From NCBI GenBank assembly GCA_030530605.1, contig JAUMUO010000005.1:1-40979 (forward strand): a stretch of 40,979 bases of DNA, given 5' to 3'. Both the position numbers and the translations under genes were made by a program. The DNA comes from Candidatus Saccharimonadota bacterium. GTDB lineage: Bacteria > Patescibacteriota > Saccharimonadia > Saccharimonadales > Saccharimonadaceae. The notes beneath the pieces were generated by a model. The model ran no database searches and was not told the DNA's origin. It saw only the letters and a program-made list of their open reading frames with translations. This document shows, one piece after another, positions 2,879-28,169 of the stretch. Position 1 is the stretch's first letter, and each line of letters starts with the position of its first letter.

Positions 2879-3539
2879 CTTAAAAGGGCTAAACACAGCA
2901 GAAAAGTCGCGACATATATGCGAGCCCCATAGCGTAAGCGCCATTAAACCAGCCATAAAAAACGACCACCGCGTCAACATTTTCATTGACGAGAAATTCG
3001 CCTTTTCTTTAGACCTTGCTCAGGTCGTAGACTTCAAATTAAAAGTCGGAAAAACTCTCACGGAGCCGGAAATCAAGAAGTTAAAAAAAGCTTCCAATTT
3101 TGGCAAACTTTATCAGCGTACTTTAGAATGGGTGCTCTCTCGCCCTCGTTCCATCCGCGAAACTAAAGACTATTTAAGAAAGAAGCAGTTCGATAAAAAA
3201 GATTACGGCATCACCGACGAGGATATTGAAAAAGTCCTAGAAATTTTGCTTGAGAAAAAATATCTGGACGACCAAAAATTCACGGAGTATTACATTGAAA
3301 ATCGTTTCACTAAAAAGGGTATCAGTAGGAAACGCTTGAAACTAGAACTTGCTAAAAAGGGCATCAGTCCAGAAACTATCGACGGCGCGCTGGAAGCGTC
3401 CGGCCGTGATGAGACCGAAGAAATCAAAAAAGTCATTGTGAAAAAACGCACCCGCTACGATGACGAAAAACTACTCCAATATCTCGTTCGCCAGGGATTT
3501 GATTACGAGCTTTCTAAATCAATAATTAAATCACTTTAA
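2865..3539 (+). CDS. recX: RecA regulator RecX
   Basis: 224 aa. RecX binds RecA filaments and modulates recombinase activity. The central and C-terminal parts show the three-helix repeats of the family: EWVLSRPRSIRETKDYLRKK, KKYLDDQKFTEYYIENRFTKKGISRKRLKLELAKKGIS and a last repeat ending YLVRQGFDYELSKSIIKSL. The N-terminal 80 residues are an extra domain of the kind seen in longer RecX proteins. Translation is coupled to the Nudix gene by a 14-base overlap. The 3' end overlaps the convergent PRC-barrel gene by 9 bases (3531-3539). Confidence 0.9.
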   Translation: MEIIDLKGLNTAEKSRHICEPHSVSAIKPAIKNDHRVNIFIDEKFAFSLDLAQVVDFKLKVGKTLTEPEIKKLKKASNFGKLYQRTLEWVLSRPRSIRETKDYLRKKQFDKKDYGITDEDIEKVLEILLEKKYLDDQKFTEYYIENRFTKKGISRKRLKLELAKKGISPETIDGALEASGRDETEEIKKVIVKKRTRYDDEKLLQYLVRQGFDYELSKSIIKSL

Positions 3540-23516: not shown

Positions 23517-23545
23517 TTGCTTTTTAAAAGCAGGAGCGTTATAAT
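23517..23545 (+). promoter_or_regulatory. Promoter of the DGR target gene, overlapping a dyad
   Basis: TTGCTT (23517-23522), 17-base spacer, TATAAT (23540-23545). An inverted repeat of about 10 bp (CTCTTGCTTTT / AAAAGCAGGAG, one wobble) covers the -35 and spacer at about 23514-23536. It could be a murJ terminator or an operator. Transcription should start near 23552 with a GAGGT sequence upstream of the ATG. Confidence 0.5.
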
Positions 23546-23585
23546 AGGGGTATATTAAGGTCATATAAATTGAGGTTATTATTAA

Positions 23586-25331
23586 ATGCTGAACAAAAAT
23601 AAACAACGAGGAGCCCTAAAACAACTAGCCACAGGGTCTGCTGTAGCTTTTTTGGCGTTTTCTTCATTCCAAATTCTCTTTCCGTCCGTTCCGAGCAACG
23701 CCGCAACGGAGGCGACTGCCACCGCTAATCTTGAGCTTGAAGTCGAGCCGACGATTGAAGTGGCCGTAGATACCCAGAGCCTCAACCTCGCTTACAACGG
23801 TGAAACCGACATCCTCCCGACCTCAGAGGGTGTAACCGCCACCGGCGACATCAACGTCTATGTGACCACTAACGGTATCTCTGGCTACACTCTCAGTCTC
23901 TATAGCCAAAGCCCCACCAACGAAATGACCAACATCAACTCCGCCGTCACCAGCAAAATCAGCCCGACCGCCGGCGGTGCTACTCTTGCTAACAATACTT
24001 GGGGCTATCAATACAACGGTGGCAACTGGACCACCGTCTCCGACGATGCCGCTGACCCGTCTGTCATCACTAACAACGGCGTCACTCCTGGCTCTCTCTG
24101 CCCGGATCTCGCCACCAACTATCAGACTTGCTACCCGAGTAGCGCCGACAGATACACGGTTACCTTCGGTGCGAAAATCACTGACGCTCTCCCGGCCGGT
24201 AGATATACTAATGATGTGGTCTTTTCTGCTATCGCCAAATCCCCGACCGTTCAACGCTCCTATCAAATTGCTTACAATAAGAACAACTCCAGCGCTACTG
24301 GCGATGTCGCAAACGCCACCGCTCTTCTTCCGGGTAACGTCCCGGCTCTCAGCGACGGCACCGGCTTTACTCTTGAAGGTATGAAGGTTGTGGGCTGGGC
24401 CCTTACCGAAGGTGCTACCGATGTCGCTACCGTCGGGGGAAATGCTATGGAAGTTGGAGCCAGCAACATTGATGTCGCCGCCCTGATTTCCGCCGCCGCT
24501 GACGCTGGCCAAGACGTTTCTGAAGACAAGAGCGGGACGATTACGCTGTATGCGATTTGGGGCGTCGCCGCCAAGTATATGCAAGACTTTAGCTGCTCCA
24601 GCCTCAACGTTGGGGACACCGATACGCTTACCGATAAGCGTGATGGCTCTGAATATAACGTCAAGAAATTCGCCGACAACCAATGCTGGATGACCTCTAA
24701 CCTCATCCTCGGCCACGATAAGGGCTATGCTCTTACTAAAGATGACACTAACATCCCGTCAAGTGATACTAGCACTTACTATCTCCCACAGGCGGGTTAT
24801 AGAGGCAATCTCAATAGCTCCAGTACAACCGGTTCTGCCACATTTGACGGTAGCAACGACAGTCAGGCCCAGGTCCAATACCGTGCCGCTGGGCAATCTG
24901 GTGACCAAAGTAGCTCTGGCACTCTCTTCCAAAGCACTGGCTACTATAACTTCTACGCTGCTACCCTTGGCTGTTCGTATTATCAAGGTGGCTCAAGTTG
25001 TCTCTCCGGTTACGTCCAAAAAGACATCTGTCCAAAGGGTTGGCAACTTCCGACCGGTGATACTGGTACTAAATCTTGGTATTACTTTTACAATACTCTG
25101 AACGGTGCTTCCCACGCTAATATGGTAGACAGCACTAAAGCCGCGCTCGGTTATTCCGGCTACTACATCAGTTCCCAGTTGTACGGCGTCGGCTCGTACG
25201 GCTACTGGTGGTCTTCTACCGTCTACGATACCAGCAGCAGCCGCTACTTGTACCTAGATACCAGTAGTGTTTACCCGCAGAACAACTACTACAAGTGCAT
25301 CGGCTTTGCCGTTAGGTGCGTGGCCCAGTAG
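23586..25331 (+). CDS. DGR target: secreted surface protein with C-terminal variable FISUMP/C-lectin-like domain
   Basis: 581 aa. Residues 1-39 are a signal peptide. About 45-220 is an Ala/Thr/Asn-rich beta domain. About 224-328 is an InlB/Listeria-Bacteroides-like repeat (YQIAYNKN...VVGWALTEGATDVA...GTITLYAIWG). About 331-581 is a FISUMP-type C-type-lectin-like domain: TDKRDGSEYNVKKFADNQCWMTSNLIL, CPKGWQLPTGD, GYWWSST and the terminal GFAVRCVAQ. The last 64 codons and 38 bases beyond the stop are the variable repeat; residues 526-572 differ from the template only where the template has adenine. With no C-terminal anchor, the variable fold ends the protein as in other DGR ligand-binding targets. 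It is followed by the accessory and RT genes on the same strand with no terminator between. Confidence 0.9.
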   Translation: MLNKNKQRGALKQLATGSAVAFLAFSSFQILFPSVPSNAATEATATANLELEVEPTIEVAVDTQSLNLAYNGETDILPTSEGVTATGDINVYVTTNGISGYTLSLYSQSPTNEMTNINSAVTSKISPTAGGATLANNTWGYQYNGGNWTTVSDDAADPSVITNNGVTPGSLCPDLATNYQTCYPSSADRYTVTFGAKITDALPAGRYTNDVVFSAIAKSPTVQRSYQIAYNKNNSSATGDVANATALLPGNVPALSDGTGFTLEGMKVVGWALTEGATDVATVGGNAMEVGASNIDVAALISAAADAGQDVSEDKSGTITLYAIWGVAAKYMQDFSCSSLNVGDTDTLTDKRDGSEYNVKKFADNQCWMTSNLILGHDKGYALTKDDTNIPSSDTSTYYLPQAGYRGNLNSSSTTGSATFDGSNDSQAQVQYRAAGQSGDQSSSGTLFQSTGYYNFYAATLGCSYYQGGSSCLSGYVQKDICPKGWQLPTGDTGTKSWYYFYNTLNGASHANMVDSTKAALGYSGYYISSQLYGVGSYGYWWSSTVYDTSSSRYLYLDTSSVYPQNNYYKCIGFAVRCVAQ

Positions 25332-25369
25332 GGCGTCCGGGGTTAGTGAGTTCTCCCCCAGCCTTTCCA
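25139..25369 (+). repeat. DGR variable repeat (VR)
   Basis: 231 bases matching the reverse complement of 27610-27840 without gaps. Differences occur at 18 positions: 25161, 25168, 25185, 25186, 25197, 25203, 25224, 25227, 25234, 25237, 25245, 25251, 25257, 25272, 25287, 25290, 25297 and 25300. All are A in the template; 11 became T and 7 became G. The flanks are identical (22 bases on the 5' side, 69 bases on the 3' side, including the stop codon). The 3' identical GC-rich block is the place for the initiation-of-mutagenic-homing signal. Confidence 0.95.
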
Positions 25370-25393
25370 TAATTTCGCTATCCTAAAATAATT

Positions 25394-26398
25394 ATGAAGA
25401 AGCAGTCTCATCATCCAAATCAATCCAATCTTTTCGAGGGGCTTGAACAAGGTAGTCTCAAAGAAAAAAGCCCTCCTCCGAAGGAGGAGGGCGGGGCTTC
25501 GCCGCTTGCGGCGAAGCCCGTGGCGGTCCCTAGCTCAGAGACCACCACGACCCCCAAATATCGTTCCATCGGCAGCCAGAAACGTGCCGAGCGCGATATG
25601 TCTGCCCGCGAAGCTAGCAAAAGATACTACGAACGTAAGAAAATTGCTCTTGGTCTTGAAAAGAAAAACTACGACAAACTAGTCTTTGTCTACGGCAACG
25701 GTGCTCACCCCTGGTGGAAAGCCTTTAATCACTCTGCGATTATCTTTGAAAATGTAATTGCCCCGCAAATCAACGTCAGGGTGACCGCCCAGAGTGATAA
25801 AGATTTTGATCGTAAGGTTCAAGCTGAAAAGGTCGTCGCCTATCAAGACATTGAAGCCTTAAAGAGAAAACTTCGTGGTATCGATTGTCAAATTGAAGAC
25901 GTCCAGGATGAAGGCATCCAGATTTTTAAACTTAAAAAGGCCATAAGCGTAGAAGAATATAACCTTTATGCCCAGAGAGACCAAGAAATTGTAGAACGGG
26001 CCGGCAAACTTTTGATGGCGCACCTCGTAGACTCCGTGCTATACGCACGGCTTAAAACCCTATATGGTTTGGCATTAAATTCGACCCGCCGGATGAGCGG
26101 TGCCTCAAGGGAATTGGTTGGCAAAGACATAGAATTAGAGGCTAGAATGCTCATTTTAAAATATCGTCGCACCGCCAAACACGGCACCGACCCTTTAGAA
26201 TTATATGAGGAGATGTTAGATATCACCGGTGATTTAGATGGAAACCTCGCGGCGATTTTAGGCACTAGCACCGAAGACGACGCCAAAATTCTGGAAATGG
26301 CCGATAAAACAGCAGACGTCAAAGAGGAGATTTTACACCAAATTAAATTAATTAAAGTCAAACAAATCAACAAGGAGCACGGAGCCGAGGCAAAATGA
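25394..26398 (+). CDS. DGR accessory protein (MutS-like N-domain plus helical Avd-like C-terminal part, tentative)
   Basis: 334 aa between target and RT. Residues 1-60 are disordered, and 26-42 of these are encoded by two tandem perfect palindromes. Residues about 75-180 (SKRYYERKKIALGLEKKNYDKLVFVYGNG...KVVAYQDIEALKRKLRGIDCQIEDV) loosely resemble the MutS N-terminal mismatch-sensing domain, a fold reported in DGR accessory proteins called MSL. Residues about 185-330 are entirely helical and basic (YRRT, KLIKVKQINKEHG) and could be an Avd-like four-helix bundle that binds template RNA and RT. Both domain calls are by eye and uncertain. It overlaps the RT start by ATGA (26395-26398), so synthesis of the two is coupled; a role in cDNA synthesis or homing is expected. 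Confidence 0.6.
   Translation: MKKQSHHPNQSNLFEGLEQGSLKEKSPPPKEEGGASPLAAKPVAVPSSETTTTPKYRSIGSQKRAERDMSAREASKRYYERKKIALGLEKKNYDKLVFVYGNGAHPWWKAFNHSAIIFENVIAPQINVRVTAQSDKDFDRKVQAEKVVAYQDIEALKRKLRGIDCQIEDVQDEGIQIFKLKKAISVEEYNLYAQRDQEIVERAGKLLMAHLVDSVLYARLKTLYGLALNSTRRMSGASRELVGKDIELEARMLILKYRRTAKHGTDPLELYEEMLDITGDLDGNLAAILGTSTEDDAKILEMADKTADVKEEILHQIKLIKVKQINKEHGAEAK
25470..25519 (+). repeat. Two tandem perfect palindromes inside the accessory gene
   Basis: Hairpin 1: 10-bp arms 25470-25479 and 25483-25492 around GAA. Hairpin 2, one base later: 12-bp arms 25494-25505 and 25508-25519 around TT. Very GC-rich compared with the flanks, in frame, encoding a Pro/Glu/Gly/Ala linker. It resembles a palindromic mobile element inserted in a coding region. 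Confidence 0.75.
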
Positions 26399-27543
26399 TT
26401 AAGAATTATATGCCGACTTATTCTCGAAATGCCCTGAGATATATTCCCACCGGCGACGACGATCTTCCCAGGGCCTTTGACGAGTGTTTCCTGATGGCCC
26501 GACGTGGCAAAACCGATACAATGGACGAGCACCGCTTTGAGATTAATGCCACCGAGAATTTAAAGCAACTAGTTTTTGAGGTAGTTACAGAGGACTATCA
26601 TCCCACGTGTGGCAAGGCCTTTATCACCTACCATCCCGTTATTCGGGAGATTTTCGCGGCGCCGTTTCGGGACCGGGTCGTCCATCATTTTCTCTATGCA
26701 GTTAATGGTTTTTGGTGGGACGACCAATTCATCTATGATTCGTATTCCTGCCGGATGGGCAAGGGGACCTTGTTTGGTATTGAGCGGGTTCAACATTTCA
26801 TGAATAAAGCTACTCAGGGCGGCTCTAAAGAGGCTATTGTGGTGAAATTGGATATTTCTGGCTATTTTATGAGTATGCCACGCCCGATACTTTATCAAAA
26901 AGTTTTAGATGGTCTTGAAAAACAGTTTCCACATTGTGGCTATCTCTATGAGCTTTGCCGCTATCTTTGGCACGAAATCATTTTTGATGACCCCGTAGAC
27001 TGTGTCCGGTTGGCTGGGAACAAACATAATTGGGATGATTTACCGAAAAACAAGAGTCTATTTAACCAGCCAGATTTACAGGGAATCGTGATTGGTAATT
27101 TAACTTCCCAGCTACTCTCAAATATTCTCTTAAATGATTTTGATCACAAAATGCGTTTCGAATACGGTATTCCTTTTTACGGTAGGTATGTCGACGATAT
27201 GATTATGGTTATTCCAGTGAACGATTTCCCGCGGGTGTTTAAGTTAATCGAAAACGAATTTCCGACAGAACTTGCTAAAATTGGTCTAAAATTGCACCCG
27301 CATAAAATGTATATTCAGCCAGTGGTAAAAGGCGTGCCGTTTCTGGGGCAATTTGTTCATCAATATTACACCACGCCTTCCAAACGGATCAAAGGGAATT
27401 ATTATAGGACTGCTAAAGAAGTGGTGATGGGACTTAAAGACCCAGAAGCGATAATTTCCTATCACGGGATGGGTAAACATACAAAGCAAAAGAAACTAGA
27501 AGCCAAGATTTTTAAAGAAATGGGCTGGGAATATATCTGGTGA
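26395..27543 (+). CDS. DGR reverse transcriptase
   Basis: 382 aa. RT palm motifs in order: VVKLDISGYFMSM (motif A, catalytic D153), GIVIGNLTSQLLSNILLNDFDH (motif B, residues 230-251), FYGRYVDDMIMVIP (motif C, D267 and D268 of YVDD), LHPHKMYIQPVVKGVPFLGQFVH (motifs D/E). The IGNLTSQ form of motif B, in place of QGxxxSP, is a hallmark of DGR RTs and is linked to their adenine-specific infidelity. The short length and absence of maturase or endonuclease domains exclude a group II intron protein. It reads the template RNA encoded at 27840-27610 on the opposite strand. The ATG overlaps the accessory stop; an intrinsic terminator follows. Confidence 0.95.
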   Translation: MIKNYMPTYSRNALRYIPTGDDDLPRAFDECFLMARRGKTDTMDEHRFEINATENLKQLVFEVVTEDYHPTCGKAFITYHPVIREIFAAPFRDRVVHHFLYAVNGFWWDDQFIYDSYSCRMGKGTLFGIERVQHFMNKATQGGSKEAIVVKLDISGYFMSMPRPILYQKVLDGLEKQFPHCGYLYELCRYLWHEIIFDDPVDCVRLAGNKHNWDDLPKNKSLFNQPDLQGIVIGNLTSQLLSNILLNDFDHKMRFEYGIPFYGRYVDDMIMVIPVNDFPRVFKLIENEFPTELAKIGLKLHPHKMYIQPVVKGVPFLGQFVHQYYTTPSKRIKGNYYRTAKEVVMGLKDPEAIISYHGMGKHTKQKKLEAKIFKEMGWEYIW

Positions 27544-27555
27544 TTTTGTTTTGGT

Positions 27556-27586
27556 GGCCCCGGGGTCTTCAGGGAGGGCCTTTTTT
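27556..27586 (+). terminator. Intrinsic terminator of the DGR operon
   Basis: GGCCC (27556-27560) pairs with GGGCC (27576-27580), extended by inner C/G pairs, and is followed directly by TTTTTT. It ends the RT transcript before it can run antisense through the TR. Confidence 0.75.
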
Positions 27587-27609
27587 GTCTTGACGAGATG
27601 ATTTTCGCG

Positions 27610-27840
27610 TGGAAAGGCTGGGGGAGAACTCACTAACCCCGGACGCCCTACTGGGCCACGCACCTAACGGCAAAGCCGTTGTACTTGTTGTTGTTGTTCT
27701 GCGGGTTAACACTACTGGTATTTAGGTTCAAGTTGCGGCTGTTGTTGGTATTGTTGACGGTAGAAGACCACCAGTTGCCGTTCGAGCCGACGTTGTACAA
27801 CTGGGAACTGTTGTAGTTGCCGGAATAACCGAGCGCGGCT
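27610..27840 (-). repeat. DGR template repeat (TR)
   Basis: Inverted copy of the VR. Read on the minus strand it encodes an in-frame but start-less version of the target C terminus in which 18 codons are Asn (AAC or AAT); 16 of these and one Tyr codon are changed in the VR. AAY codons give wide amino-acid diversity on adenine mutation while avoiding stop codons, which is the signature of a DGR template. No similarity to the target gene continues upstream (27841 on), which excludes a simple gene duplication. Confidence 0.95.
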
Positions 27841-27971
27841 CCAAGGACAATAACACAACACCCACTAGGAACGCCCCGGGTAGTCCCGCCGAGCGCAACG
27901 AACAAGTGCATGTAAAAGAGATACTTACGGCCGCAGACGCCCCTCGGGGCGCTCGCGCCAATCTGCACAGG

Positions 27972-28008
27972 ACTTGAGTTATGAAGCACTCTGCCTCATA
28001 ACTCAAGT
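27972..28008. repeat. 13-bp perfect inverted repeat
   Basis: Arms ACTTGAGTTATGA (27972-27984) and TCATAACTCAAGT (27996-28008) around an 11-base spacer. There is no T-tract on either side, so it is not an ordinary terminator. It lies between the putative template-RNA promoter and the TR. Confidence 0.8.
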
Positions 28009-28169
28009 GTATCTCCCCTTTCCACAAAATAACCGGCCGAGCGGAAAGGTATTTTAAGTTACTCAGCGGAGGCCAGCCATCTCGCTTACTCTATTATGCC
28101 ACATCTGCTCTTTATTGTAGGGCTTAGGCTTGTTGTTGCTCTTTCGCATATGCCTAATTTTGGCAAGTC

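Follow-up and report, generated by a model that had tools for sequence, protein, structure and literature searches.

A chromosomal diversity-generating retroelement with an inverted template repeat in a Saccharibacteria genome

The stretch of DNA analysed here, referred to as the window, comprises 40,979 nucleotides from contig 5 (JAUMUO010000005.1) of a Candidatus Saccharimonadota genome (GCA_030530605.1; 677,640 bases, 96% complete) and carries a diversity-generating retroelement (DGR). As judged from its sequence, this is very probably an intact chromosomal DGR of Saccharibacteria in which mutagenic retrohoming varies a FISUMP (C-type-lectin-like) domain, located at the C-terminus of a protein that is secreted or anchored at the surface. 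The cassette is real and, as a DGR of the candidate phyla radiation (CPR), ordinary in kind, while its architecture is a variant one: the target gene with its variable repeat (VR), an accessory gene and the reverse transcriptase (RT) gene follow one another on the plus strand, and the template repeat (TR) alone lies on the minus strand, 3′ of the RT gene. The bacterium is a tiny member of the Saccharibacteria and probably host-dependent. A preliminary description of this DNA had proposed a complete DGR with a secreted FISUMP target in a CPR genome, and every part tested is present. Unremarked there were the orientation of the TR opposite to RT and VR, the presence of three cassettes in the genome and a structured RNA leader.

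Adenine-Restricted Divergence of the Repeats

A repeat search recovered two arms of 231 nucleotides that match without gaps, the VR at 25139-25369 on the plus strand and the TR at 27610-27840 on the minus strand; the positions and length in the preliminary description are exact. The VR takes in the last 63 codons of the target gene, its stop codon and 38 nt of 3′ untranslated region (UTR), the TR sits between the RT gene and the next gene, and identity between the two breaks off sharply at either end. Alignment bore out the earlier claim of 18 gapless substitutions, all at template adenines. Eleven are A>T, seven are A>G and none is A>C, and the 171 TR bases other than its 60 adenines are unchanged in the VR. 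Under random mismatch the chance of 18/18 falling at adenine is p ~ (60/231)^18, or ~3e-11. The DGR criterion applied was that at least 75% of TR/VR mismatches lie at TR adenines; in the window the figure is 18/18. The 18 changes alter 17 target codons, every one nonsynonymously. Seventeen diversified codons had been reported before, a number that stands as a count of present differences but not as one of capacity, since the TR part matching the coding VR holds 54 adenines in 63 codons, 18 of which are AAY. It is only on the minus strand that the altered bases read as adenine, so the template must be a minus-strand RNA; synthesis of the TR from the RT operon on the plus strand was rejected on the same ground.

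The same genome encodes two more full-length RTs, each with its own accessory gene, TR, VR and FISUMP target, giving three intact DGRs in 678 kb, the window cassette included. Each of the three VRs is accounted for by its own TR. Mismatches in the two paralogous cassettes lie at adenines in 19/19 and 25/25 cases, and over all three cassettes 0/529 non-A sites are changed, which argues for recent homing. RT matches were found in 61 of 150 related genomes, between one and four per genome and a few of them fragments, and most of these 61 belong to the same genus; the named relatives are mostly Saccharibacteria, many from ruminant guts. Among the 69 RT loci examined, 65 have a TR/VR pair (66 pairs, as one locus adds a second, short one), and these 65 hold 1394 adenine changes (rate 0.367) against 72 changes at other bases (0.0067).

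The change rate depends on the base after the template adenine: 62% for AA, 31% for AC, 25% for AT and 3% for AG, as in phage-type relatives. Across the 65 TR/VR pairs together with 65 pairs from IMG/VR, a template adenine before G is almost never altered (3%) and one before A is altered in 57-62% of cases. Adenine mutagenesis in the Bordetella phage element BPP-1 is likewise context-dependent, with AAC as a hot motif (PMC12875486), a trait shared with the window clade. The lack of A>C in the window VR was considered as a special trait and dropped; A>C makes up 12% of pooled changes both in the 65 clade loci and in the IMG/VR relatives, which makes 0/18 an event of p ~0.1.

The last part of the repeats (25329-25369 on the plus strand) resembles an initiation of mutagenic homing (IMH) site. 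It is pyrimidine- and GC-rich, is the same in VR and TR through 25369 and terminates in TTCTCCCCCAGCCTTTCCA, and a CCCCCAGC core within such ends is common to all three cassettes of the genome. Past the stop codon, the 3′ ends of TR and VR are pyrimidine-rich and adenine-poor in many loci, a composition that would shield them from mutagenesis.

A DNA hairpin or cruciform that is a candidate element of target recognition, GC-rich and with a perfect 10-bp stem, follows at 25470-25492 on the plus strand, 100 nt past the VR. In the two paralogous cassettes the hairpin lies 94 and 82 nt past the VR, a range of 82-100 nt within the genome, and a strong GC hairpin downstream of the VR is found in 40% of loci versus 0.2% of shuffles. 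A role of these hairpins as terminators of target transcription was rejected, as a sense-strand T-tract follows 0/26 strong hairpins, that of the window included. The absence of such tracts is in keeping with a DNA hairpin like the one required by BPP-1 (PMC3240598); in phage DGRs the hairpin lies closer, 4-34 bp from the VR (PMC3240598). Read on the minus strand (25492-25470), the window hairpin is terminator-like, its stem being followed by TTTTTTCTTT, and the TR transcript, unless stopped earlier, could run antisense through the RT and accessory genes to this point.

Reverse Transcriptase, Accessory Protein and Target

The RT gene (26395-27543, plus strand) encodes 382 amino acids with an RVT_1 match and is intact, with the catalytic Asp in KLDISGYFMS, the VIGNLTSQ motif and YVDD all present. 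DGR-class RTs were recognized by [ILV]GxxxSQ in place of QGxxxSP together with a YxDD active site, and the window RT has both; the IGNLTSQ and YVDD motifs had been noted previously, and their core residues (IGN-SQ, YVDD) are invariant across 12 aligned relatives. Compared with solved structures in the Protein Data Bank, the RT profile finds the Bordetella phage DGR RT as its best match (8ub7_A, 2e-37), the next reaching 1e-13. Neither a substitution at a non-adenine template position nor an RT-inactivating mutation, observations that would have counted toward refuting the preliminary description, was found.

An accessory gene was correctly recognized in the preliminary description; it is of Avd type, and its start calls for a correction. 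The open reading frame (ORF) is open from 25394, and a start there is doubtful, as alignment with the closest homologs begins only near residue 55 and most of these are 260-290 amino acids long; translation may instead begin at 25598, giving a gene at 25598-26398 on the plus strand. Family profile searches with the protein returned no sequence-family match. Its AlphaFold2 (AF2) model has a predicted local distance difference test score (pLDDT) of 92.9, and in Foldseek it matches BPP-1 Avd (4dwl/8ub7) with probability 0.99-1.00 and a target TM-score (TMt) of 0.73-0.78, at an E-value of only ~0.1-0.4, and the S23/IVP-type protein 2gsc with TMt 0.86 and a root-mean-square deviation of 1.4. These matches span ~110 residues and must therefore correspond to the C-terminal helical part. 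The protein is thus predicted by modeling to consist of an N-terminal alpha/beta domain and a C-terminal Avd-like helix bundle, the same predicted fold as the bAvd and S23 intervening-sequence bundles (4dwl, 8ub7, 2gsc, 2rld); unlike those proteins, it has no sequence-level family match and carries the extra alpha/beta domain, which BPP-1 Avd lacks. The extra domain, ~110 residues long, shows at most a weak MutS_I resemblance. Assignment as a MutS domain I protein was rejected, given that MutS_I appears in 1/47 members at E 0.041 and that a family search of genomes gave nothing above cut-off. In eight relatives (L057, L068, L071, L072, L074, L077, L083 and L091), the accessory ORFs begin, by reading, with a sequence like a Cro/Xre-type helix-turn-helix, for example ILRVKKWKQKDLAGKLGVSEKTMSFWLNDKKRP, which suggests a DNA-binding or self-regulating Avd fusion.

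The target gene (23586-25331, plus strand) encodes 581 amino acids. A hydrophobic signal or anchor segment spans residues ~14-35, with a hydrophobic 19-mer starting at residue 14. After a middle region comes a C-terminal FISUMP domain (residues 347-580), which ends in the VR and exceeds the cut-offs of two family models, TIGR02145 (E 1.4e-12) and PF09603 (E 3e-9). The putative lectin fold is read from this family match; the AF2 model of the target is poor (pLDDT 54.5) and finds no fold match, and an attempt to establish the fold through that model was abandoned. A variable face that touches a host cell is a plausible and reasonable guess. Residues 79-217 (23820-24236) show a weak likeness to the C-domain model of CPR Pam pilins (NF058581, E 0.011), far under cut-off. 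Identification of the target as a Pam pilin was rejected, as the match scores 15.8 bits against a cut-off of 55 and is not repeated in nine other targets.

Template Inversion Across the Clade

The lone inverted TR is the norm among relatives. Of the 65 loci with a TR/VR pair, 62 have a TR that is convergent with the RT gene, immediately past its 3′ end and on the opposite strand. In 50 of these 62 the target precedes RT and shares its strand, as in the window, and in the other 12 it is found beyond the TR and on the TR strand. The exceptions in the clade are three TRs on the RT strand and one TR upstream of RT. Single loci with the TR back on the RT strand are L143:3763-4124 and L097:5404-5706. 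All 65 IMG/VR relatives, at ~31-40% RT identity, carry the TR upstream of RT and on the same strand as RT. On an RT tree of 89 rows obtained by a quick search, three changes of orientation suffice, and the window RT groups with its two genomic paralogs and two congeners with full support. Inversion and relocation of the TR seem to date from early in the clade, near its base, with a few later reversals. The canonical same-strand order of VR, TR and RT is thus not required, clade-wide. Many members of this genus, Saccharibacteria with small genomes that come mostly from ruminant guts, keep between one and four copies of the RT, and every cassette would rewrite a surface protein of FISUMP type.

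A Structured RNA Leader of the Template

A structured RNA leader occupies 27914-28019 on the minus strand, 73 nt 5′ of the TR. Its fold in the window consists of a helix P1 (28009-28019 with 27914-27924) enclosing two hairpins, P2 (27972-28008) and P3 (27929-27959). Against dinucleotide shuffles, the 180 nt 5′ of the TR fold more stably, with a mean z of -1.29 (n=61) and in the window -3.5, compared with -0.13 for the TR itself. A covariance model was built from 18 loci, the window leader (27917-28016) being a seed sequence. Its best non-seed matches in 590 kb are L085, L062 and L058, each located on the strand of a TR and less than 210 nt 5′ of it. Within 80 named loci, partly from the same genomes, the model adds L130, L143, L123 and L174, 15-81 nt 5′ of their TRs and again on the TR strand, which puts the distance over all seven matches at 0-209 nt; L117, where no TR was recognized, also scores. 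Run on 773 kb of phage-type loci, it gave 0 matches, and Rfam held nothing relevant to the leader.

Within the leader alignment, 90.7% of cells are paired and covariation is 0.609 versus 0.237 in shuffles. Double changes occur at all seven P1 pairs, and over both helices there are 52 compensatory cells versus 16.9 +/- 3.0 in shuffles. All these figures lean toward structure, because the alignment was fitted to the covariance model. The element also moves with the template: at L143, where the TR shares the strand of RT, its leader has flipped too, and at L062 the TR lies ahead of RT and has carried its leader there. The leader therefore belongs to the TR unit, which does not tell its function. 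At L123, matches to the model lie both 5′ and 3′ of one TR on the same strand (2534-2604 and 3088-3158), possibly a duplicated element.

A candidate -10 box, CATAAT, is found at 28093-28098 on the minus strand, 258 nt 5′ of the TR. The paralogous cassettes have TATAAT at 259 and 265 nt, and TATAAT occurs in 36/64 TR leaders versus 8.3 in shuffles.

Several results weigh against a conserved, separately transcribed leader. A strict sigma-70 scan 5′ of the TR passed no promoter and found no excess over shuffles. The covariance model recognizes only about one third of the loci, the rest being divergent or without a recognizable element. A descriptor search for the leader shape gave a modest contrast, with 53% of loci versus 21% of shuffles at score 44. 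Combined with flanking motifs (CYT after P1, AAG before the P1 3′ strand), the shape is found in 19% versus 0.2% in shuffles, a strong contrast; the motifs were not used in the descriptor search, yet were noticed on the same loci.

Proposed Mechanism and Alternative Explanations

A promoter near 28093 would give rise to a separate minus-strand TR-RNA, apart from the RT mRNA. On the scheme known from BPP-1, the RT and the accessory protein would copy this RNA with errors opposite adenine, and the cDNA would replace the VR, with help from the DNA hairpin downstream of the VR and from the 3′ end of CCCCCAGC type that VR and TR have in common. More tentatively, the leader fold could perhaps serve as a docking or control element for RT and accessory protein, in the role of the structured spacer RNA that recruits bRT-Avd from a position 3′ of the TR in BPP-1 (PMC12875486). 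A fuller proposal for the clade, speculative and somewhat unlikely, is that the template RNA is an independent minus-strand noncoding RNA whose 5′ leader (a P1-P2-P3 junction with CCYT and AAG joints) took over from that 3′ spacer both RT and Avd docking and cDNA control, so that TR and leader form a movable unit free of the RT operon. If so, such a unit would let one small genome run three separate hypermutation systems. A docking leader would also mean a compact template unit that stands apart from the RT operon, and its comparison with the BPP-1 3′ spacer would allow a direct test of how a DGR RT is brought to the template.

A docking or control role and a plain stability role are about equally likely for the leader. 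The chances are somewhat short of even that the DGR is intact and the leader only an element of transcription or stability, such as an attenuator, a 5′ cap against RNase or a guard against pairing with the convergent RT mRNA, with RT and accessory protein recruited elsewhere, for instance 3′ of the TR as in BPP-1. Like many stabilizers in 5′ UTRs, the leader lies near the candidate start site, and for the 180 nt 3′ of the TR, too, folding is somewhat more stable than in shuffles (mean z -0.91). That 3′ signal, however, includes the RT terminator hairpin, and inspection by eye of the 110 nt 3′ of TRs found no shared structural motif. The travel of the leader with flipped or relocated TRs speaks against a bare stability element as far as membership of the TR unit goes, not as to role.

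That the retroelement was recently inactivated and its VR differences are frozen is improbable. DGR activity we infer from repeat identity, a point against the interpretation as an active system, and some related loci lack a recognizable VR or have short matches. All ORFs of the window cassette are nevertheless intact, and neutral drift would erode the complete lack of non-A differences seen over three cassettes. It is more improbable still that the inverted TR results from misassembly or from a single, isolated rearrangement: the sequences are metagenome-assembled and draft genomes, and recombination can flip inverted repeats, but the same orientation recurs at 62/65 loci from dozens of independent genomes and needs only three changes over the 89 rows of the tree, which refutes this explanation for the clade. 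Although repeats can have many origins, gene conversion or duplication of the ordinary kind, with no reverse transcription, is excluded here by the mismatch pattern, adenine-only in the window and nearly so in 64 other loci, beside a DGR-class RT.

Relation to Known Retroelements

The cassette resembles that of BPP-1 (mtd-avd-TR-brt) in its DGR-class RT, Avd-fold accessory protein, adenine-specific changes from TR to VR, VR at the 3′ end of the target gene and GC hairpin downstream of the VR (PMC3240598). In BPP-1, avd and brt flank a TR that shares their strand, whereas in the window the TR follows the RT gene on the opposite strand; the structured RNA is 3′ of the TR in BPP-1 and the conserved fold of the window clade is 5′. 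The TR placement of the BPP-1-type cassette (VR-Avd-TR-RT on one strand), upstream of RT and on its strand, is found in 65/65 of the IMG/VR relatives with a TR/VR pair and not in the window.

Inverted arrangements have been described before. Schillinger et al. 2012 defined Group 4 of "inverted" DGRs from three gammaproteobacteria, Shewanella, Vibrio and Photobacterium (PMC3521204). As there, the window TR is opposite to RT, hence two transcription units. In Group 4, however, VR and target lie with the TR on the strand that does not carry RT (PMC3521204), and in the window the TR alone lies there, which places the cassette outside that group; TR and target are together opposite to RT, as in Group 4, at 12/62 loci of the window clade. 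The same work considered TR and VR on opposite strands as a theoretical possibility, with the distant VRs of Pseudogulbenkiania as an example (PMC3521204), and inverted patterns are present in a 2019 survey (PMC6642488). With the CPR/Patescibacteria DGRs of clade 2 in Roux et al. 2021 (PMC8144416), the window shares a cellular, chromosomal location, a CPR host and adenine bias. Targets of that clade are reported not to carry, as a rule, recognizable transmembrane or other conserved domains (PMC8144416), whereas the window target has a FISUMP domain and a signal segment. TR orientation is not discussed in the accessible part of Roux et al. 2021 (PMC8144416). In the DGR literature, as incompletely covered here, no earlier account was met of a lone opposite TR as a clade norm accompanied by a 5′ leader that shows covariation; this leader seems to be new, and an earlier description is possible.

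Genomic Context

As judged by sequence, the flanks of the cassette are chromosomal, with a MurJ-like flippase upstream and a PilB/GspE-type ATPase and an RNase J-like protein downstream; a prophage DGR is therefore not suggested. Past the RT gene, a sequence scan located a terminator-like hairpin with a T-run at 27556-27590 on the plus strand.

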